DNA of 43,596 nt from Syntrophomonadaceae bacterium (GTDB taxonomy: Bacteria; Bacillota; Dethiobacteria; DTU022), in assembly GCA_007119615.1 (NCBI GenBank), contig SKPH01000021.1:1-43596 (forward strand), given 5' to 3'. The notes under the pieces were generated by a model, which saw only the letters and a list, made by a program, of their open reading frames with translations, was not told the origin of the DNA and searched no databases. Below, one piece after another: positions 30,725-42,384 of this stretch. The translations under genes were made by a program, and so were the position numbers. The stretch's first letter is position 1, and each line of letters begins with the position of its first letter.

Positions 30725-31495
30725 TTGGCTTTGCGTATAGGTATTGCCGGTTATGGGCAGATGGGTAGGATGATCCGGCAAAAAGCACTTGCCGGCGGTC
30801 ACGAAGTACCGGTAATTGTTGATCCCGACAGCACCTCTGAGGAGGTCACCGCTGAAGATGTAGCTTCGATTTCTGCACCAGTGGATGTTATAATAGATTT
30901 TACGGCGCCGCATGAGGTAATTAATAACATTGAACGTTACGGCGAATTGAAAATACCGGCAGTAATCGGAACTACCGGATGGTATGAGCAGATGAACCGG
31001 GTTGCCGCAATCGTCGATAAATCTGGAATCGGCCTGATCTGGTCGAGCAACTTCTCGTTGGGAGTAAATCTTTTTTTCCAACTGGTTAAATCGGCCGGCA
31101 GGCTAATGAACCGTTTTCCTCATTACGATGCAGCAATTCATGAATGTCATCACCGCCATAAAGCAGACAGCCCATCAGGTACAGCCAAAACGATCGGTGA
31201 TATCATTTTAACTGCTCTGGATAGAAAAAGGTTGACGGTAAGTGAATTACGGGAAGGCCGTATTGATAAAGACGCACTGCATATATCATCTACCAGGTGT
31301 GGTTCTGTACCGGGTTTTCACCGGGTGATTTTTGACAGCGATGTGGATACCATTGTTTTGGAGCACACGGCCAGAAACCGTGAAGGATTTGCCGAAGGAG
31401 CTCTGGCAGCGGCCGATTGGATTTGCGGCAGAAAAGGTATGTTTAGTATAGACGATATGATGGAATCAATCATCGGAGGTGTTTTCGATCGATAA
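30725..31495 (+). CDS. dapB: 4-hydroxy-tetrahydrodipicolinate reductase
   Basis: This enzyme catalyses the second committed step of lysine/meso-DAP synthesis (256 residues, usual length). The Rossmann motif is GIAGYGQMGRMI, the substrate region is ECHHRHKADSPSGTAKT (with the catalytic His-His and Lys), and the C-terminus EFAEGALAA-like block follows. It begins with TTG, 8 bases after AAGGGGG. Its end overlaps the preferred frame of dapA by 17 bases, giving translational coupling. Confidence 0.93.
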   Translation: MALRIGIAGYGQMGRMIRQKALAGGHEVPVIVDPDSTSEEVTAEDVASISAPVDVIIDFTAPHEVINNIERYGELKIPAVIGTTGWYEQMNRVAAIVDKSGIGLIWSSNFSLGVNLFFQLVKSAGRLMNRFPHYDAAIHECHHRHKADSPSGTAKTIGDIILTALDRKRLTVSELREGRIDKDALHISSTRCGSVPGFHRVIFDSDVDTIVLEHTARNREGFAEGALAAADWICGRKGMFSIDDMMESIIGGVFDR

Positions 31496-32390
31496 TATAT
31501 TCCGCGGAGCGCATACAGCCCTGATTACTCCGTTTACTTCAACCGGGGCCGTGGATATTGGAGCATTCAAACGCCTGGTGGAATACCAGATCGAATCGGG
31601 TATCGATGGATTGGTGCCCTGCGGTACTACCGGCGAAAGCTCAACTCTTACTCATGATGAGCACGATAGGGTCATAGCCCTGACAGTGGAGTATGCTGAC
31701 GGACGGGTCCCGGTTATTGCCGGAACGGGAAGCAATGCCACCGTAGAGGCGGTTCAATTATCTCAGCATGCCGAACAGGCAGGAGTTGATGCAGTCCTTC
31801 TGGTCAACCCTTATTATGTAAAACCAACCCAGAAAGGCCTCTACCTGCACTTTAAAGCTGTTGCGGAATCGATCTCGATTCCCTGTATAGTTTACAATAT
31901 CGAAGGGCGTACCGGTGTTAATCTTGAGAATGAAACCCTCTACCGGCTGATGAGCGAAAACAAAAATATCGTCGGAGTGAAAGAAGCTTCGGGAAGCCTG
32001 GAGCAGATGAAAAACCTGATCAGTTTACGCCACGATGAATTTGTAGTCCTGTGTGGTGACGACAATATGACTGTAGACCTGATTGAAGCCGGGGGCAATG
32101 GTGTTGTTTCCGTGGCAGCGAACCTGATTCCACGTCAGATGACAGAGATGGTTCACAATGCTCTTGATGGGAATATCAAACAGGCCAGAGAGCTTGAAAA
32201 CCGCCTGATGCCTTTTTTTAAAGCCTGTTTTGTTGAAACAAACCCAATCCCGATCAAGACGGCTATGGCCATGAGAGGTTGGTGCCAGGAAGCTTTCAGA
32301 CTGCCGATGTGTTCACTCTCCCGTGATGAGCATTATAATGTTATCAGGGAAGCGATAGATAAACTGGAAATTCCGGAGTTTAATGCGTAA
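31479..32390 (+). CDS. dapA: 4-hydroxy-tetrahydrodipicolinate synthase
   Basis: This enzyme condenses pyruvate with aspartate semialdehyde to begin the DAP branch (303 residues). Typical blocks are GAHTALITPF, GTTGESSTLTHDEH, AEQAGVDAVLLVNPYY, the YN-x-GRTG loop and VGVKEASG with the Schiff-base lysine. The loop reads YNIEGRTG where P is usual in place of E. The start is unclear. GTG at 31479 overlaps the ribosome site GGAGG. The same site is 8 bases from an in-frame ATC (31488), so initiation may use a rare codon or depend on coupling to dapB. Confidence 0.93.
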   Translation: MFSIDNIFRGAHTALITPFTSTGAVDIGAFKRLVEYQIESGIDGLVPCGTTGESSTLTHDEHDRVIALTVEYADGRVPVIAGTGSNATVEAVQLSQHAEQAGVDAVLLVNPYYVKPTQKGLYLHFKAVAESISIPCIVYNIEGRTGVNLENETLYRLMSENKNIVGVKEASGSLEQMKNLISLRHDEFVVLCGDDNMTVDLIEAGGNGVVSVAANLIPRQMTEMVHNALDGNIKQARELENRLMPFFKACFVETNPIPIKTAMAMRGWCQEAFRLPMCSLSRDEHYNVIREAIDKLEIPEFNA

Positions 32391-32422
32391 TCAGAAATTA
32401 TTAGGAGAATAAGGAGCAGGTT

Positions 32423-33652
32423 ATGGCAAAAATTAATGCACATTACAGAAAACTAAGCGCCGGTTATCTTTTTCCTGAAATCGGCAGGAGAATAAAAATA
32501 TTTCAGCAGGATAACCCCGGTTTCAAAGTGCACCGGCTGGGTATCGGTAACACTACTGAACCGCTTACGCAGGCCGTGATCAACGGTCTGCGGAAGGGAG
32601 TCGACTCCCTGGCAGCAAAGGAAACCTATTCAGGTTACGGAGACGAACAGGGCGAAGAAGAACTGCGGGCAGGACTTTCCCGATTTTATAAAAACCGGGG
32701 AGTCGGTATTGAAATTGACGAATTTTTTGTCAGCGATGGAGCAAAACCTGATGCTGGAAATATTCAATCGATTTTCAGCACTGATAACCGGATCGCATTC
32801 CAGGACCCGGCCTATCCGGTTTATGTCGACTCAAATGTAGCTGCCGGGAGGTCGGGCCCTTATGACAATAAACAGGGTAATTACAGTGGCTTTGTCTACA
32901 TGGTTTGCAACCTGGAGAATGGATTTATTCCCGATCCGCCACAGGAGCGGGTCGACCTGCTTTACCTGTGCAGCCCGAACAACCCAACCGGTGCCGTCGC
33001 TACTCACCGGGATCTGCAAAATTTTGTTGACTATGCCCGTGAACGGAATGCAGTGATAATTTACGATGCTTCTTATTCAGAGTTTATTTCCGATTCAGCT
33101 CTCCCGCGCTCAATATATGAAGTTAACGGAGCTAAAGAATGTGCGATCGAGATTAACAGTTTTTCCAAGTTCGCCGGATTTACAGGAGTTCGCCTTGGAT
33201 GGTCGATCGTTCCCAGGACCCTGGTTTGTGAAGACTGTGAACCCGGTGAGCTTCATGATTTTTGGTTGCGCCGGCAGACAACCTTTTTTAACGGGGCTTC
33301 AAATATTGCTCAGCGCGGCGGGATTGCTGTGCTCTCAGATCAGGGACTAAGGGAATGCGCTGCTCTGATTGATTACTACATGGAAAATGCCCGGGTGATC
33401 AGAGAGAGCCTTCTAAAAAGGGGGCTTTTAGTCTACGGAGGAGTAAATGCCCCATATCTCTGGGTGAAAGCTCCCGGAAACCTTTCTTCGTGGGAATTTT
33501 TCAATAAACTCCTCGATGAAGCTCATGTGGTTGGTACTCCCGGATCAGGTTTCGGCCCTTCCGGTGAAGGGTACATTCGGCTGAGCGCGTTTAACCACCG
33601 TGAAAATATTGAAGAGGCGGTAAGGAGTATCCTGGATAACCTGGCTTTATAG
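32423..33652 (+). CDS. dapL: LL-diaminopimelate aminotransferase
   Basis: This PLP enzyme makes LL-diaminopimelate directly from tetrahydrodipicolinate, bypassing the succinylase route (409 residues). Recognisable blocks are GYLFPEIGRRIKIF, LGIGNTTEPLTQAV, SPNNPTGAVA and the PLP site SFSKFAGFTGVRLGW with Lys249. AAGGAG precedes the ATG. It lies between dapA and lysA in a pathway-ordered cluster. No dapD, dapC or dapE is present here. Confidence 0.93.
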   Translation: MAKINAHYRKLSAGYLFPEIGRRIKIFQQDNPGFKVHRLGIGNTTEPLTQAVINGLRKGVDSLAAKETYSGYGDEQGEEELRAGLSRFYKNRGVGIEIDEFFVSDGAKPDAGNIQSIFSTDNRIAFQDPAYPVYVDSNVAAGRSGPYDNKQGNYSGFVYMVCNLENGFIPDPPQERVDLLYLCSPNNPTGAVATHRDLQNFVDYARERNAVIIYDASYSEFISDSALPRSIYEVNGAKECAIEINSFSKFAGFTGVRLGWSIVPRTLVCEDCEPGELHDFWLRRQTTFFNGASNIAQRGGIAVLSDQGLRECAALIDYYMENARVIRESLLKRGLLVYGGVNAPYLWVKAPGNLSSWEFFNKLLDEAHVVGTPGSGFGPSGEGYIRLSAFNHRENIEEAVRSILDNLAL

Positions 33653-33805
33653 CCGGCAAAATCCTGGAAATAAAGAACTCATTGATAAATTGATTCAATT
33701 TACTAATACCGGTTATCTTTATAATTGAAAACAGTTAACTTTCTTCTTACCAACGAGGGAGAGGTATTCTAATCGGATTAACTCTCTATTGCGGAGGCGG
33801 CAAAT

Positions 33806-35068
33806 GTGAATGAAAAAAGAATCCCTTTATCGAAAACAGAACTGGAAGCGATAGCATCTGAATATCCTACACCATTTCACATCTACGACGAAAAAGCTAT
33901 TCGGGAAAATGCGCGGGCTTTTTATCGGGCTTTCTCCTGGATTTCCGGTTTTAATAACCATTTTGCGGTTAAAGCCTGCCCCAATCCGACTATACTGAAT
34001 ATTTTGCGCGAAGAAGGTATGGGAGTCGATTGCAGCTCTTTGGCGGAGCTGGTTTTATCTGAAAGGGTTGGTTTTAAGGGTGATCAGATAGTTTTCACTT
34101 CCAATGATACTCCGCCGGAGGAATTTATCGCTGCCACCCGCCTGGGCGCTGTTATCAACCTGGATGATATCGGGCATATTGAAACTTTGGAAAAAAGCGC
34201 AGGTTTACCCGAACTGCTATCTTTTCGTTATAATCCCGGTGAGGCCCGTACTGGCAATGTTCTCATCGGGCAGCCGCAGGAAGCAAAGTATGGGATAACT
34301 ACCGATCAGGTTGGAGAAGCTTACCGGAGGATCAGGGATAAAGGTGTAAAACGTTTCGGCCTGCATACAATGGTTGCCTCGAATGAACTTGAAAACAGTT
34401 ACTTTGTGGAAACCGCCCGCATGTTGTTCGAGCTGGCTGTGAAGATAAAGCGTGATTGCGGGGTAGATATTGAGATGATTAATATGGGCGGAGGTATTGG
34501 AATTCCGTACCGCCCTGAAGACAGCGCAATTGATCTATCGGAAATTTCCAGGGGCATGCAAAAACTTTACGGACAAATCATTGTGCCTGAAAGCCTTGAC
34601 CCCCTGAAAATAGTTTTTGAGTGCGGCAGGCTAGTAACAGGGCCTTACGGTTACCTGGTCAGCAGGGTGCGCCATGTAGCCCATAAATACAAGGATTATG
34701 TTGGTTTGGATTCCTCTATGGCCAACCTTATGCGCCCGGGCTTATACGGAGCATACCACCATATTACTGTGCCGGGTAAAGAAAATATGCCTCCAGGGCG
34801 AACATACGATGTTACCGGCTCTCTTTGTGAAAATAATGATAAATTTGCTATTGACCGCCCTCTTCCGGAAATTGAAGCAGGGGACCTGGTGGTTATTCAC
34901 GATACCGGAGCTCACGGCTATTCGATGGGTTTCAACTATAATGGCAAATTGCGCTCTGCGGAACTATTGCTTCGGGACGACGGTTCAGTTCAAAAAATTC
35001 GCCGTGCAGAGACCATCGATGATTATTTTTCGACAATGCGGTTTCCGGGAGCCCCGGTATCGATTTGA
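33806..35068 (+). CDS. lysA: Diaminopimelate decarboxylase
   Basis: This PLP enzyme decarboxylates meso-diaminopimelate to lysine (420 residues). It is a fold type III barrel with Lys56 in FAVKACPNP, the glycine loop NMGGGIGIPY, ECGRLVTGPYG, and the second-domain GSLCENNDK. The active-site Cys and the partner Tyr near HGYSMGFNYNG are present. It begins with GTG with GGAGGCGG upstream. The 153-base gap after dapL is A/T-rich and may hold its own promoter. DapF is not seen in the window. Confidence 0.9.
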   Translation: MNEKRIPLSKTELEAIASEYPTPFHIYDEKAIRENARAFYRAFSWISGFNNHFAVKACPNPTILNILREEGMGVDCSSLAELVLSERVGFKGDQIVFTSNDTPPEEFIAATRLGAVINLDDIGHIETLEKSAGLPELLSFRYNPGEARTGNVLIGQPQEAKYGITTDQVGEAYRRIRDKGVKRFGLHTMVASNELENSYFVETARMLFELAVKIKRDCGVDIEMINMGGGIGIPYRPEDSAIDLSEISRGMQKLYGQIIVPESLDPLKIVFECGRLVTGPYGYLVSRVRHVAHKYKDYVGLDSSMANLMRPGLYGAYHHITVPGKENMPPGRTYDVTGSLCENNDKFAIDRPLPEIEAGDLVVIHDTGAHGYSMGFNYNGKLRSAELLLRDDGSVQKIRRAETIDDYFSTMRFPGAPVSI

Positions 35069-35900: not shown

Positions 35901-35986
35901 ATCTACCTGAAGCAGTATTGCAGGTTAATATTGCTTTGATTGCCAGGCGGTCAGGTTAGCATATTTTAACGGAGGGCGGTGTGTTT

Positions 35987-37318
35987 GTGAATATGCAAAC
36001 GACAGATCAACAGTATAAACGGCGCACCGGCCTTCTCTACCTGCTGTTCAGCACTGTATTTTTTTTAAATGCTGTAATCTTTCTTTTCCAGGCTCTAACC
36101 AAAAATCTCTTTCCGCCCCTTCTTTTGCCGCTCAGGGAAGCTTTTCTGATTGATAACTCCCAGGTGGGCATGCTGGTTACCCTGGTTTTTTTCGGTTATG
36201 CCCTGGCCAGATTCCCTTCAGGCATAATGGCTGATCACATTGGCTGTACCAAAACCGTCCTCCTGGGAAGCGCCGCCATGGCCATCTCCTTCGTCGGAGT
36301 GGCTGTGTCTCCAAATTATCCCGTAATGGCTATTATGGTTTTCATCCTTGGTGTTAGCAGTGGTGTTTATGTCACAGCCGGTTACACTCTTGCTGTTATC
36401 ATTGGTTCCCGAAAGAGAGCTGCTACGGCTACCGCTGCTTTCGAATCTTTCGGTATTGCAGCCGGCATAGCTTCTCCTGCCCTGGTTACGGTATTCGTCC
36501 TTTTCCTGAATTGGCAGTTACTGTTTATACTGTCCGGTATTTTACTGGCAGCAGTTACAGCTTTGTTTCTCCGTTTTAAAGAGAGCTCATTTAATTACGA
36601 GGAAGAGTATGCCGCTCAAAGTGGTATTGATGGAGGATATATTGATAATTTACCATCACCGGAGCCCCAGGCGGGAATGTTAAAAAAATTAATACAAGAT
36701 ATCCGCTCCTCTAATGTTATATTCCGCGATCCAGTGATCAGGCGGTTTATTATCTGGAGCACCCTGGTCGGTGGATTAGGAGCGCTGTCATGGACCGGCA
36801 TAAATTCATTTATCCCCACTTTCCTGGTTGAAGAAAGAGGCTATAGCTATGATCTTGCCAACAGGATGTTTATTATAGTCGCTGTGGCAGGGCTGGCTGC
36901 GAAGATCGGAATTGGCTCGCTGGCAGACCGGTTTGGGAACAACCCGGTTTTACTGGCAAACCTTGCCCTTAGTATAATAATGTTCTTTGCCCTGACTCTG
37001 GCAGTCGGGTATTGGCAGCTTATAGCTATCCTGGCATTACTTGGAGCCGCCTGCCTGAATACAAATACCCTGATCAATTCTTACGTTCTTCGCAATATGC
37101 CTCCCCGGTACCAGGGTGCAGGCTTCGGTCTTTTTAGTACAGCCTATACTGCAATTTACAGCCTGGGTCCTTACCTGACCGGTTCTTTGGCAGACATGGT
37201 CGGCCTCGGCAAAGCGATCCAATTTAGTTCTGCAGGAGCTGTGTTGGCAGTATTCCTGATCTTTTCAGCCAACTACTTTGTCCCAAAACATCTAGTTGAT
37301 AAAATGTCCCCAAGTTGA
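35987..37318 (+). CDS. MFS transporter, organic anion/nitrate-type
   Basis: This is a major facilitator protein of about 443 residues with 12 helices. The motif FPSGIMADHIGCTKTVLLGS lies after helix 2, and GLAAKIGIGSLADRFGNN begins the second half. A 40-residue polar loop (about 200-240) separates the halves. Possible starts are GTG 35981, GTG 35987 and ATG 35993. GGAGGG at 35971-35976 best fits the GTG at 35987. The substrate is unknown. Its place just before the peptide-active genes suggests it could import or export their substrate. Confidence 0.82.
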   Translation: MNMQTTDQQYKRRTGLLYLLFSTVFFLNAVIFLFQALTKNLFPPLLLPLREAFLIDNSQVGMLVTLVFFGYALARFPSGIMADHIGCTKTVLLGSAAMAISFVGVAVSPNYPVMAIMVFILGVSSGVYVTAGYTLAVIIGSRKRAATATAAFESFGIAAGIASPALVTVFVLFLNWQLLFILSGILLAAVTALFLRFKESSFNYEEEYAAQSGIDGGYIDNLPSPEPQAGMLKKLIQDIRSSNVIFRDPVIRRFIIWSTLVGGLGALSWTGINSFIPTFLVEERGYSYDLANRMFIIVAVAGLAAKIGIGSLADRFGNNPVLLANLALSIIMFFALTLAVGYWQLIAILALLGAACLNTNTLINSYVLRNMPPRYQGAGFGLFSTAYTAIYSLGPYLTGSLADMVGLGKAIQFSSAGAVLAVFLIFSANYFVPKHLVDKMSPS

Positions 37319-37440: not shown

Positions 37441-39099
37441 ATGGTGGGATCTACAACAACCCATGAGAGAAAAGCAGTTACGGCAAAAAGCAGGTATGGA
37501 ATGGTCTCGACCGCATCGCAAGTCGCAACTGAAGCCGGGGTCCGGATTTTGGAAAAAGGAGGCAACGCTGTAGATGCAGCGGTTGCAGCAGCCTTTTGCC
37601 TCGGAGTAACCGAACCACAGGCTTCGGGCCTGGGTGGACAAAGTATGGTCCTGCTACACCATTGCCCGGGGGAAAAACCGGTTACTCTCGCGCTTGACGG
37701 ATCTTCACGGGCTCCATTTGTGATAAATCCCGAACTGCTTCCGGCAAAACCTCTTAATCAGGGCATAAGGGCGACTACAGTCCCGTCAACACCCGCCACT
37801 CTCGGTTACCTGTTGGAAACGTACGGAACCCTGACCCTGGATAAGATCTTGCAACCCTCAATTCTTGCGGCCAGGGAAGGTTTCAGGATTACTGCATTGC
37901 AGCACAGACTGCTTTCCAGGGAGAAGGAAAAGTTTACAGACGAGTTAGTGCAGTCCATATTCTTTAAAAATGGCAGGCCTTTAAATGCCGGAGATATTGC
38001 CTATCAACCTCAACTTGCAGGCTGCCTGGAAAGGATTGTTGAGAAGGGGTGGAGAGACTTTTACCTTGGAGACATTGGAGAGCAAATCATTGAAGATATG
38101 CAAAAGCGTGGAGGATTAATCACGAAAATCGATTTAAGCCAGATTCCATTACCGGTTCAACGTAAAGTTTTAAATAGTTCTTACCGTGGTTATGCTTTGG
38201 CAACTTTTCCGCCGCCGGGAGCGGGGCGGACCATGGTCCAGATCTTAAAAACCCTTGATCAGATCGAACCGGAGAAGCTTGTACCGGATTCACCGCTCTA
38301 TTATTTATTGCTGGCCATGACCTTCAGGACCGCCCTGATGGACAGGGAACGGTTTCCCATTGACCCTGTGCTTTACCCGCAGCTAAACGACAAAGGAATG
38401 ATTGATAAAGAAACCGCTTTGCGTGTTGCTTCACGTATAAAAAATTTGGTTTCTTATCTGGTAGGAGAACAGTTTACGCCCCCGCCTGCTTCCGGGGAGA
38501 CAACCCACTTATCAGCTGCCGATGCTTATGGTAATATCGTCGGTATAACACAATCGATAGAGCATGTTTTCGGGGCCAAAACCATGGCTGAAAAATTGGG
38601 GTTTTTTTATAATAATTACATGAGCGCTTATAATTATACAAATATGTTGCACCCCAACTATCTTTTGCCCGGTGGCCGTCCCTGGAGCAGTGTAGCCCCA
38701 ACCTTGCTGTTTCGTGAAAATGGGCAGCCATTTATGATCTTGGGCAGTCCCGGCAGTGAGCGGATTTCCACTATTCTGGCCCAGGTTATTTGCAGGGTTA
38801 TTGATTGCGGCCAGGAACTGGCTTATGCCATCGAAGCGCCCCGCTTTCATGCCGGAAGAACCGGTAAAGTGGCAATCGAAAAAAGAAGTTACCGGCCGGA
38901 AGTGGTTGAACTTTTGGATCGTGCAGGGTTTACGGTCAGAAGCCGGGGTGATTACAGTTTTTATCTGGGCAGCGTACAGGCCGTAGAACTGCCGAAACAA
39001 CCCGGAGGGGTCTTTATCGGGATTTCTGATCCCCGCCGCGATGGAATCGCCCGCGGGCCGCGTTCGATAAAAACTGAATGCCAGGGAGAGGTGAGATAG
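37441..39099 (+). CDS. Gamma-glutamyltranspeptidase homologue lacking a signal peptide
   Basis: This 552-residue protein of the GGT family self-cleaves and hydrolyses or transfers gamma-glutamyl groups. The opening GMVSTASQVATEAG and GGNAVDAAVAAAFCLGVTEP are typical. The predicted nucleophile is Thr354 in GETTHLSAADAYGN, and the oxyanion block WSSVAPTLLF follows. No signal peptide is present, so it is predicted to be cytoplasmic, unlike the classical secreted enzymes. The substrate may therefore be an internal gamma-glutamyl compound. The ribosome site is weak. The stop TAG shares its last base with the GTG start of the next gene. Confidence 0.83.
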   Translation: MVGSTTTHERKAVTAKSRYGMVSTASQVATEAGVRILEKGGNAVDAAVAAAFCLGVTEPQASGLGGQSMVLLHHCPGEKPVTLALDGSSRAPFVINPELLPAKPLNQGIRATTVPSTPATLGYLLETYGTLTLDKILQPSILAAREGFRITALQHRLLSREKEKFTDELVQSIFFKNGRPLNAGDIAYQPQLAGCLERIVEKGWRDFYLGDIGEQIIEDMQKRGGLITKIDLSQIPLPVQRKVLNSSYRGYALATFPPPGAGRTMVQILKTLDQIEPEKLVPDSPLYYLLLAMTFRTALMDRERFPIDPVLYPQLNDKGMIDKETALRVASRIKNLVSYLVGEQFTPPPASGETTHLSAADAYGNIVGITQSIEHVFGAKTMAEKLGFFYNNYMSAYNYTNMLHPNYLLPGGRPWSSVAPTLLFRENGQPFMILGSPGSERISTILAQVICRVIDCGQELAYAIEAPRFHAGRTGKVAIEKRSYRPEVVELLDRAGFTVRSRGDYSFYLGSVQAVELPKQPGGVFIGISDPRRDGIARGPRSIKTECQGEVR

Positions 39100-41267
39100 T
39101 GAAAATAGCGATAATTTATAATAGAGACAGCCAGGCAGTGATCAATCTGTTTGGGACGCCCAATCGCGAAAAATACGGTTTGCAAACGATCGATATGATT
39201 ACTGAAGCTCTCGGGGAAGGCGGTCATCAGATTAAAGCGTTTGAAGGCGACAAAAACATCATGTATGCGCTGGAAGAATTTATGCCCACGGTTATTTCCG
39301 GTGAGCGGCCTGGGCTTGTTTTTAACCTCAGTTACGGTATTCAAGGCCGGGCCCGCTATACTCATATACCTGGCATTCTCGAAATGCTGGGCATTCCTTA
39401 TGTTGGTTCAAGCCCGGCAACCCATGCTATTGCTCTGGATAAAGTGCTGACCAAGATGGTACTCCTCCAGAAAGGGCTGCCCACTCCGAAATTTACGGTA
39501 CTGGAAACACCCCACTTTACTCTGCCCCTGGGCGATGATTTGAAATATCCTCTGATCGTCAAGCCTAAGGATGAGGCTGTCTCTTTCGGACTGAGGATTG
39601 TAAACAATGATCAGGAATTGCGGGAAGGGGTTGCAACAATTTACAACAACTTCAGGGCAACTACACTGGTTGAGGAATATATTGAAGGCCGTGAAATTAA
39701 TATAGGACTTCTGGGGAATGATCCTGTCGAAGCTTTTCCGCCAGTTGAAATTGTTTTCAGTGAAGGGGAGCATATCTATACCTATGAAGATAAAATAAAA
39801 ACCAGCGGTAGAATGTTGGATAAAATCTGTCCAGCGCCTCTCGAGCCGAAGGTAACTGAAAAGTTGAAGCGGCTGGCTGTTGATGCATTTAAAGCCTTGG
39901 ACTGTTTCGACAGCGCCAGGGTCGATTTTCGGATTGATAATCAAAACAACCCCTATATTCTGGAAGTAAATTCCATGGCCAGCCTGGGGCCGGGAGGGTC
40001 GTATGTCTATGCGGCAGAAAAAGCGGGACTGCCTTATAATGCTCTGGCCAACCGTTTGATTGAGGTAACCAGTCAGCGCTATTTTGGCCCCATGGTTATA
40101 GGAGACAGTTCACCCTGGTATCAGGATGACCCCAGAAGTACGGCTTTTACCAGCCTTACTCAGAATCGCGACAAGTTGGAGGAAGAGTTAAAAAACTGGA
40201 CAAATCTTCCCAGCTGGACCGGTGATCCTGTGGGACTTGGCGCAGTTGTAAAGAGGTTGGAACAACGGTTTTCCGAGCTCGGCCTTAAACCGGTACAGGA
40301 GTACAGCAGCAAACGTTCAGCCTGGACCTGGCAGACGGAATCCGGTTTTGAAGACGGGACACTGCTTGTTGCATCCATTGACGTTCCCCGGGACGGAGGT
40401 GGCGGTTATCCGATTCCTTTCCGGCGCGATCCTGAATGGTTGTATGGCGAAGGGATAGCTTCCAGCCGGGCCGGCATTGTCTGTATCCTGGAAGCTCTTA
40501 ATACCCTAAATTCAATCGATAAACTACAGGACAATAAGCTGGGTGTTTTTATTTATGCCGATGAGGGCAGGGGAATGCGTTACAGCTCGCAATACCTGCA
40601 GCGGGCCGCCGCCGCGGCAGGGCAGGTAGTCGTTTTACAGCCCGGTTTTTCCGGCGGCAAAGTTGTTGACCAACGCCGCGGTTCACGTAAGTTCAGTATT
40701 TTGGTAGAAGGAGAATTTCAACGGATTGGTTCTCACGGATCATCTGATGACCTGATGAGCTGGTTTTTGTCCCGAGCCGACAAAATCGGCTCACTCAGTA
40801 TGCCGGAAGAGCGGCTGACGGTTGCAGTGCAGGAAGTTCACTCCGAACGGTATAGCGTCTTACTTCCTCACCGCATCAGGGCTACAGTATACGTTACATT
40901 TCTTGATGCTGAACTGGCGGATCGGGCAGAATCCAGGCTTCATGAGTTTTTTGCTCCCGGGCAGGGAGAAATGGATGAAACCATGGTTTATATCGAACGC
41001 CTTGAGGAGAGGCCTTCCTTAAACCGATCAGAGGAGACAGCCCGAATGATTTCGCGGTTAAGAAAAATAAGTGAAGATTGGAAACTGCCGTTTGGGGTTG
41101 AAGCCAGCTTACTGCCTTCAGCTGCCGGCGAGGTACCAGCAGGGACACCTGTAATTTGCGGATTTGGGCCTGCAAGCCGGGACATGTTTACCCCCCACGA
41201 ATGTATTCACAGGGGAGAAATGCTGCAACGGGCCCTGCTTTTAACTCTTTTACTGTTGGAGGATTAA
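39099..41267 (+). CDS. ATP-grasp (D-Ala-D-Ala ligase-like) fused to M20-like pseudopeptidase
   Basis: This is a 722-residue two-domain protein. Residues about 1-330 resemble D-Ala-D-Ala ligase ATP-grasp enzymes: VFNLSYGIQG, IPGILEMLGIPYVGSSPATH, LIVKPKDEAVSFG and the metal site RVDFRID...ILEVNSMASLGPGG (Glu289, Asn291). Residues about 365-722 follow the M20 metallopeptidase order, but the metal ligands look replaced: the H-x-D motif reads ASIDV (Ser426), the next D reads GEGIASSRAG, D-E-E reads DEGRG, and the following E reads VVLQP (Gln514). The catalytic Glu and the final His (TPHECIH) remain. The preferred start is GTG at 39099, overlapping the previous stop by one base, with GGGAGAGGTGAG upstream. 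The activity may be amide-bond formation plus substrate binding. Confidence 0.75.
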   Translation: MKIAIIYNRDSQAVINLFGTPNREKYGLQTIDMITEALGEGGHQIKAFEGDKNIMYALEEFMPTVISGERPGLVFNLSYGIQGRARYTHIPGILEMLGIPYVGSSPATHAIALDKVLTKMVLLQKGLPTPKFTVLETPHFTLPLGDDLKYPLIVKPKDEAVSFGLRIVNNDQELREGVATIYNNFRATTLVEEYIEGREINIGLLGNDPVEAFPPVEIVFSEGEHIYTYEDKIKTSGRMLDKICPAPLEPKVTEKLKRLAVDAFKALDCFDSARVDFRIDNQNNPYILEVNSMASLGPGGSYVYAAEKAGLPYNALANRLIEVTSQRYFGPMVIGDSSPWYQDDPRSTAFTSLTQNRDKLEEELKNWTNLPSWTGDPVGLGAVVKRLEQRFSELGLKPVQEYSSKRSAWTWQTESGFEDGTLLVASIDVPRDGGGGYPIPFRRDPEWLYGEGIASSRAGIVCILEALNTLNSIDKLQDNKLGVFIYADEGRGMRYSSQYLQRAAAAAGQVVVLQPGFSGGKVVDQRRGSRKFSILVEGEFQRIGSHGSSDDLMSWFLSRADKIGSLSMPEERLTVAVQEVHSERYSVLLPHRIRATVYVTFLDAELADRAESRLHEFFAPGQGEMDETMVYIERLEERPSLNRSEETARMISRLRKISEDWKLPFGVEASLLPSAAGEVPAGTPVICGFGPASRDMFTPHECIHRGEMLQRALLLTLLLLED

Positions 41268-41269
41268 TC

Positions 41270-42088
41270 ATGACGCCTGGTATTAGCAGCCTGCCGCTGA
41301 TAATATCAGTTCCGCACGGCGGTCTGGAAGTGCCGCCGGAGGTGGAAAAATATTGCCGCCTCGATTCGTCGGACCTGCTAAGAGAAGGAGACATCTGGGC
41401 AGATTTTATATATAATATAAAAGAACATGTCCATGCATTTATTAAGTTTCCGGTAGCCCGGGCTATTATTGACGTTAACAGGGCTGCCGACGACAGGCCC
41501 CCGCAAAATCCCGACGGGGTAGTAAAAACTTTAACTCTGAATAATGATTATATCTGGGAAAAAGTCGGGGGGCTTTCCGAAGATCAAATCGGAAAGCTGT
41601 TGGATCGTTATTATTATCCGTACCATCAATATCTCTCTGCCTATTCTGTTAACCGGGATATATTGTTGGGTCTTGACTGCCATACCATGCTGGAGCGAGC
41701 GCCGCAAATTTCGAACTGCCCTGGAGAAGCGCGGCCCCTGGTCTGTCTGAGTAACGGGGGAGATGAAAACGGGGAAGCATTAGACGAACCTGTTACCGCT
41801 TCTCCTGATCTGATTCGGTCCCTGGCGCAGGCCCTTGAGCGGCAGTTGATGAATTTTGGTCTTGACAGTTCAGTGCCGCCCGTTTTGCTTAACCGGCCTT
41901 TCAGCGGCGGTTATATTACAAAAACAAATGGTTCTGTCGAACAGATACCCTGGATTCAGATTGAATTTAACCGCTCTTTATACCTTTCAGATGAACCCCG
42001 GGTTTCAGGTCCGGATCAGCAGACTACAAAGCGTATTGAGATGCTGAAAATGTATTTTTTAAAAGCTCTTGAAGATTTGTTTTTATAA
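41270..42088 (+). CDS. N-formylglutamate amidohydrolase family protein
   Basis: This 272-residue protein resembles the N-formylglutamate amidohydrolase (HutG-like) family of zinc amidohydrolases: ISVPHGGLEVPPE at the N-terminus, RAIIDVNRAADDRP and LGLDCHTMLERAP. The His and Asp residues in SVPHGG and LDCH are expected metal or substrate contacts. ATG at 41270 follows GGAGGATT and is two bases after the upstream stop. Longer in-frame readings extend into that gene and are rejected. No other histidine-degradation genes are present, so the substrate is more likely an acylated or gamma-glutamyl amino acid made or used by the neighbours. Confidence 0.82.
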   Translation: MTPGISSLPLIISVPHGGLEVPPEVEKYCRLDSSDLLREGDIWADFIYNIKEHVHAFIKFPVARAIIDVNRAADDRPPQNPDGVVKTLTLNNDYIWEKVGGLSEDQIGKLLDRYYYPYHQYLSAYSVNRDILLGLDCHTMLERAPQISNCPGEARPLVCLSNGGDENGEALDEPVTASPDLIRSLAQALERQLMNFGLDSSVPPVLLNRPFSGGYITKTNGSVEQIPWIQIEFNRSLYLSDEPRVSGPDQQTTKRIEMLKMYFLKALEDLFL

Positions 42089-42108
42089 GAAAGGAGGTGT
42101 TCCGGAGA

Positions 42109-42384
42109 ATGGATAAAGAAGCATATAAGCAGAAACAGGAAGCGCAATTAAAGGAGTGGCAGGCGGAAATTGATAAGCTGAAAGCTCAGACCCAGAAGAA
42201 AAGCGCCGAATCCAAAATAGCATACGAAGAGAATATAAAGAAACTGGAAGAAAAGAAGGAAGAAGCATCAGAGAAATTTAAGGCGTTGCAGGAAACCGGC
42301 GATGAACGCTGGGAAGAAGTCAAAAGTGAGTTTGAGAAAAAGGCGGAAGACTTTAAGAAGCAGCTAAAGGATATATTTTCTTAA
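42109..42384 (+). CDS. Small charged coiled-coil protein
   Basis: This 91-residue protein is almost entirely helical, with a continuous Lys/Glu-rich heptad pattern (KEWQAEIDKLKAQTQ...YEENIKKLEEKKEEASEKF...). It has no signal peptide or membrane segment. It resembles small coiled-coil proteins annotated in many bacteria without a known role. AAGGAGGTG lies 8-10 bases upstream of ATG 42109. It is the last gene of the ggt-like cluster (20-base gap) and is followed by a strong hairpin. Confidence 0.8.
   Translation: MDKEAYKQKQEAQLKEWQAEIDKLKAQTQKKSAESKIAYEENIKKLEEKKEEASEKFKALQETGDERWEEVKSEFEKKAEDFKKQLKDIFS

Follow-up and report, generated by a model that had tools for sequence, protein, structure and literature searches.

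What does a peptidase fold do when it sits behind an ATP-grasp ligase and has lost the residues that held its metals? The question is raised by one gene in the window, by which we mean the whole stretch of 43,596 nucleotides analysed, from a Syntrophomonadaceae bacterium. An initial annotation, made from the DNA letters alone, had described the product as a Ddl-like ATP-grasp ligase joined to an M20-type domain without metal ligands.

A ligase and a peptidase fold in one reading frame

Pfam, profile alignment and Foldseek all confirm that a Ddl-like ATP-grasp half and an M20-type half are fused here. The frame is open throughout 39078-41267 on the forward strand and is divided as follows:

39099..41267, + strand: fused ATP-grasp/pseudo-M20 protein, 722 aa, GTG start, within a long ORF from 39078
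39099..40088, + strand: Ddl-like ATP-grasp ligase half; ATP/Mg core intact, Ddl E15/S150/Y216 triad absent
40089..41264, + strand: M20/CPG2-type half, without metal ligands

The start MKIAIIYN at GTG 39099 is the start position in most homologues. Numbered from 39078, residues 131-329 match the Ddl-type ATP-grasp (Ddl C-terminal) domain of Pfam (E 8e-37) and residues 439-726 match Peptidase_M20 (E 7e-6; 26.6 bits against a cut-off of 24.6). For comparison we used 18 close fused proteins from 16 genomes, two of them single-contig, which we call clade A; all 18 homologous C-terminal halves match Peptidase_M20 separately.

A profile built from the 18 M20 halves finds carboxypeptidase G2 (CPG2) as its first match in the PDB (E 6e-13). 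Structure prediction, which the initial annotation had proposed as a check, agrees with this profile alignment: in a Foldseek search with an AlphaFold model of the M20 half (six sequences; pLDDT 73, pTM 0.71), CPG2 entries came out on top, with 1cg2 at TM 0.68 and E 7e-20. A full-length model, also from six sequences, was poor (pLDDT 54) and was not used for placing the domains.

Could the fusion be an artefact of assembly or frame? The source is a metagenome-assembled genome of 66 contigs and about 70% completeness, which would leave room for one. The same fusion, however, recurs across 19 genomes, of which G152 and G357 are single-contig assemblies with 98-99% completeness, and this recurrence already refutes an artefact, leaving it a negligible probability.

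All five zinc ligands of the M20 half are lost

We read the former active site against CPG2, using as a yardstick the residues that we take CPG2 to carry at each position:

40374..40376, + strand: Ser426, at the CPG2 H112 ligand position; P/S/C in homologues
40380..40382, + strand: Asp428, at the CPG2 D114 position (Asp orienting a ligand His); invariant
40461..40463, + strand: Ser455, at the CPG2 D141 bridging-ligand position; S, once T
40563..40568, + strand: Glu489 and Gly490; catalytic E175 invariant (40563-40565), ligand E176 lost (40566-40568), with Gly invariant
40638..40640, + strand: Gln514, at the CPG2 E200 ligand position; Q, M, H, A
41187..41189, + strand: Phe697, at the CPG2 H385 ligand position; Y, F, and His twice, in homologues

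None of the five dizinc ligands is present in the window copy, and the general base Glu175 and Asp114 are kept and are invariant in clade A. The alignment upholds the initial annotation in reading the H, D, E and E ligands as S, S, G and Q, and in finding the catalytic Glu retained (E489, equivalent to CPG2 E175, invariant in clade A). It was mistaken about the last His, which it believed to remain. FTPHE is the counterpart of the M20 HxxxE motif, which puts a Phe (F697) at the H385 ligand position; the His of TPHE lies three residues past it and is H, N, Y, D, Q, T or F among the homologues. The same register of ligands is obtained in PDB alignments, with CPG2 covering the first motifs and DapE the last one, as well as with 26 standalone M20 proteins.

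The residues that bind substrate in CPG2 have gone as well: Arg324 is T and the lid His229 is R in the window protein, and both the Arg and the lid His are lost in clade A. Whatever the M20 half may bind therefore need not be the ancestral ligand, or a glutamyl one.

It is possible that the M20 half has retained or acquired catalysis in another manner than by the classical dizinc site, by a relocated metal site or by metal-free chemistry through D428, E489 and E701. The equivalents of E175 and D114 are invariant in 18 of 18 proteins, together with D488, E701 and R457, and the sister clade described below retains D or E at most of these places. Yet a metal-site-like set of conserved His and Asp that could replace the five lost ligands was not found in the homologues, the His near the last motif vary, and the active hydrolases of the operon are probably the products of the two flanking genes. 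We regard such catalysis as unlikely.

The loss is shared by related fusions

Other proteins with both domains, for which the initial annotation had suggested a search, were found, and the loss of the first four ligands is conserved across the 18 clade-A fusions; the fifth is also missing in 16 of them. Of 71 genomes of the order, 8 carry the fusion or part of it; among 399 genomes sampled across the phylum the number is 12, from 10 genera, with two single-contig genomes among them. The named carriers are Syntrophomonadaceae metagenome assemblies and one labelled Mollicutes, and isolate names point to soda lakes as their habitat. At E <= 1e-20, the M20 half was seen only in fused frames or in fragments at contig edges. 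At one locus (L011, 2090-8184) a single gamma-glutamyltransferase (GGT) gene has a copy of the fusion on either side; the two copies have diverged and share 69% and 81% identity with that of the window.

Searching with the ATP-grasp half uncovered three more fused proteins, which form a sister clade (clade B). Identity is about 50% in the ATP-grasp half and about 21% in the M20 half, and these proteins hold different remnants of the metal site: H or N at H112, E at D141, Q or K at E200, H or N at H385, and D followed by T or W at E175/E176. In the nearest standalone M20 proteins all five zinc ligands are kept (26 of 26).

Ligands at shifted positions, or homologues with intact ligands, were the two findings named in the initial annotation as speaking against true loss. 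A fused protein with an intact M20 site was not found among roughly 500 distinct genomes sampled. The shifted site fared less clearly and was only mostly rejected: the His near the last motif are variable, and the invariant acids leave only an atypical site conceivable.

In the M20 tree, the standalone proteins lie apart from clades A and B (100/97), and clade A sits on a long stem branch; in the ATP-grasp tree, A, B and one unfused relative are grouped (99/99). The simplest reading is a single fusion, followed by stepwise, lineage-specific loss of the metal site and later by one loss of the whole M20 half. The last step refers to L081 (7994-8986), a standalone ATP-grasp protein 61-62% identical to the ligase half, which has apparently lost the domain. 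The M20 half has thus been dispensable at least once, which counts against the role that we propose for it below.

The former active site appears to be constrained

Is the M20 half simply decaying? The loss of ligands, the long clade-A stem and the one relative without this half could be read in this way. Against it, the half is open over its full length in 21 fused proteins, 54 of its 392 window positions are invariant in the 18 homologues, and dN/dS is well below 1 (0.03-0.12, compared with 0.02-0.07 in the ligase half, with dS near saturation). This conservation largely refutes a vestigial M20 half, which we consider very improbable. Decay of this one copy was rejected too, as the half is conserved in the 21 fused proteins; ligand loss that is conserved across at least ten genera, with both halves under purifying selection, is genuine and not the mark of a single degraded copy.

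A different possibility is that the M20 fold is purely a scaffold that supports dimerisation or stability, with no small ligand bound to it. A scaffold would tolerate the loss of ligands, dN is about 1.3-2 times higher in the M20 half than in the ligase half, and CPG2-type M20 enzymes dimerise through their satellite domain. Conservation is not evenly spread, however, as might be expected of a scaffold, but peaks at the former active-site positions: of the 68 residues no more than 6 away from one of the seven former active-site positions, 20 are invariant, against 34 of 302 elsewhere (Fisher p 3e-4), although some of those close to the site are structural glycines. D428 and E489 are moreover invariant with no obvious structural demand on them. 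A mere scaffold therefore seems to us improbable, if still credible. The cleft appears to be constrained rather than drifting, and the concentration of conserved residues fits a retained pocket, in which, as the initial annotation conjectured, the acceptor of the ligation might be held.

The ligase half is probably active on a substrate other than D-Ala

Aligned to the Ddl of the source genome itself, the ligase half has the equivalents of K97, K144, E180, E187, R255, D257, E270 and N272, which are invariant in all 18 clade-A and all 3 clade-B proteins. Its best matches in the PDB are Ddl enzymes (E 3e-34). The triad that binds D-Ala (E15, S150, Y216), by contrast, reads A, V and I in the window protein, and none of its residues is conserved in the fusions; curated Ddl models (NCBIfam) reach at best 172 bits against a cut-off of 243, and a canonical Ddl is encoded elsewhere in the source genome. 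Probably the ATP-grasp half is active as a carboxylate-amine ligase but uses a substrate different from D-Ala.

A GGT gene and an FGase-like gene flank the fusion

The genes surrounding the fusion give a further indication of its function:

35981..37318, + strand: MFS transporter, upstream; conserved in close relatives only
37441..39099, + strand: GGT family gene; no obvious signal peptide, catalytic Thr motif ETTHLS present
41270..42088, + strand: FGase (N-formylglutamate amidohydrolase)-like gene; ATG two bases past the fusion stop

The GTG of the fusion at 39099 overlaps the TAG stop of the GGT gene (TAGTG). With this overlap on one side and the ATG two bases past the stop on the other, the GGT, fusion and FGase-like genes look translationally coupled. 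The initial annotation had missed this operon context, as it had clade B.

A GGT gene adjoins the fusion in 8 of the 11 fusion genomes that have any GGT, and an FGase gene in 7 of the 8 that have any FGase; the linkage spans several families and extends to clade B (L079). Assuming two copies among 2,000 genes, the chance of such adjacency is roughly below 1e-17 for each of GGT and FGase, a figure from which kinship among the genomes has not been removed. Speaking against our preferred reading, neither gene is adjacent in about half of the genomes. The linked GGTs have the ETTH motif and no clear signal peptide, and enzymes of this family that lack such a peptide are considered intracellular (PMC8062742).

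In relatives of the source genome, three loci (L119, 839-2809; L120, 850-2832; L121, 3218-5197) encode proteins of about 660 residues in which a GshB/MptN/RimK-like ATP-grasp domain is itself fused to an FGase. These fusions indicate independently that amidohydrolases of this kind act together with ATP-grasp ligases; a description of them was not found in the literature searched.

Further upstream, at 30725-35068, lie dapB, dapA, a dapL-type aminotransferase gene and a lysA-like decarboxylase gene, followed by the TspO-like, MFS, GGT, fusion and FGase genes. A link to this diaminopimelate/lysine operon was considered and set aside: the order is conserved only in a close relative (L013/L038), and the operon is therefore probably not part of the system. 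Behind the FGase-like gene, 42097-42384 encodes a charged protein of 95 residues, probably a coiled coil, which has no Pfam match and is conserved in L011.

A proposed binding module for a probable amide ligase

We propose, with a probability of roughly 0.55, that the protein is a working ATP-grasp carboxylate-amine ligase for a substrate other than D-Ala, fused to a pseudo-M20 module that serves binding, positioning, regulation or assembly, with the GGT and the FGase-like enzyme acting on its product. In the ligase half, a carboxylate would first be converted to its acyl phosphate and then coupled to an amine. The M20 half would no longer hydrolyse, having kept its fold and conserved cleft, and would most likely bind substrate, product or effector for the ligase instead, perhaps also mediating assembly. 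The GGT and the FGase-like amidohydrolase, co-expressed in the cytosol, would process the same amide or isopeptide.

This product may contain glutamate. CPG2 and glutamate carboxypeptidase are the nearest relatives of the M20 lineage, and GGT, FGase and the glutamate-ligase fusion share the theme; as the substrate residues of CPG2 are lost, the link, drawn from family names, is suggestive only. A bolder version, which we hold tentatively and at somewhat less than even odds, is that a captured glutamate carboxypeptidase domain, stripped of its zinc, now holds the substrate or senses the product of the ligase, as part of a GGT/ligase/FGase-like cassette for the synthesis and recycling of an undescribed metabolite that may be glutamyl.

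The fusion is a clear example from nature of a degradative domain turned into the partner of a biosynthetic one. As the two clades parted with their metal sites along different routes, it also allows the stages of this conversion to be followed. The linked genes provide a way, open to testing, towards a new intracellular amide or isopeptide in anaerobic and soda-lake bacteria. Under automated annotation these proteins would be called D-Ala-D-Ala ligase or M20 peptidase, either of which is misleading.

Comparison with known systems

The literature searches covered an ATP-grasp/M20 fusion, the combination of ATP-grasp with FGase and GGT, and LysX/LysK; they returned no matches, most subscription papers lying outside their scope. 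Metallopeptidase pseudoenzymes are reviewed in PMC11266112; a text search of this review gave no discussion of M20-family members. The M20 half resembles such pseudoenzymes in its conserved peptidase fold, its lost catalytic metal site and its assumed binding or regulatory role; one fused to a biosynthetic ligase was not found in the literature searched.

With Ddl and Ddl-like enzymes the protein shares the ATP-grasp fold, the invariant ATP/Mg-binding residues and its best PDB matches, and it differs in the replaced triad, the missed NCBIfam cut-offs, the C-terminal M20 half and the presence of a separate Ddl in the genome. With CPG2 and glutamate carboxypeptidase (M20) it shares the fold, the closest match in sequence and structure, and the conserved Glu175 and Asp114; unlike them, the window copy is without all five zinc ligands, Arg324 and the lid His229, and sits behind a ligase.

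In the LysW amino-carrier lysine pathway, the ATP-grasp glutamate ligase LysX and the M20 hydrolase LysK act on one amide. Those are separate proteins with an active M20 enzyme, whereas here a single chain carries a metal-dead one. In E. coli, glutathionylspermidine synthetase/amidase (GspS) carries an amidohydrolase on the same polypeptide as an ATP-grasp-type amide ligase. The fusion likewise has a ligase and a hydrolase-type domain in one chain; the GspS amidase, however, is an unrelated, active, N-terminal CHAP domain (GspS and its CHAP domain are named in PMC10318531), and that of the fusion is a C-terminal, metal-dead M20. The sequence argues against classical hydrolysis. The ATP-grasp/FGase fusions of L119-L121 also join a ligase to an amidohydrolase in the same bacterial family, with an FGase of the type encoded by the flanking gene; their ATP-grasp domain is GshB/MptN-like rather than Ddl-like, and their FGase His motifs appear intact.
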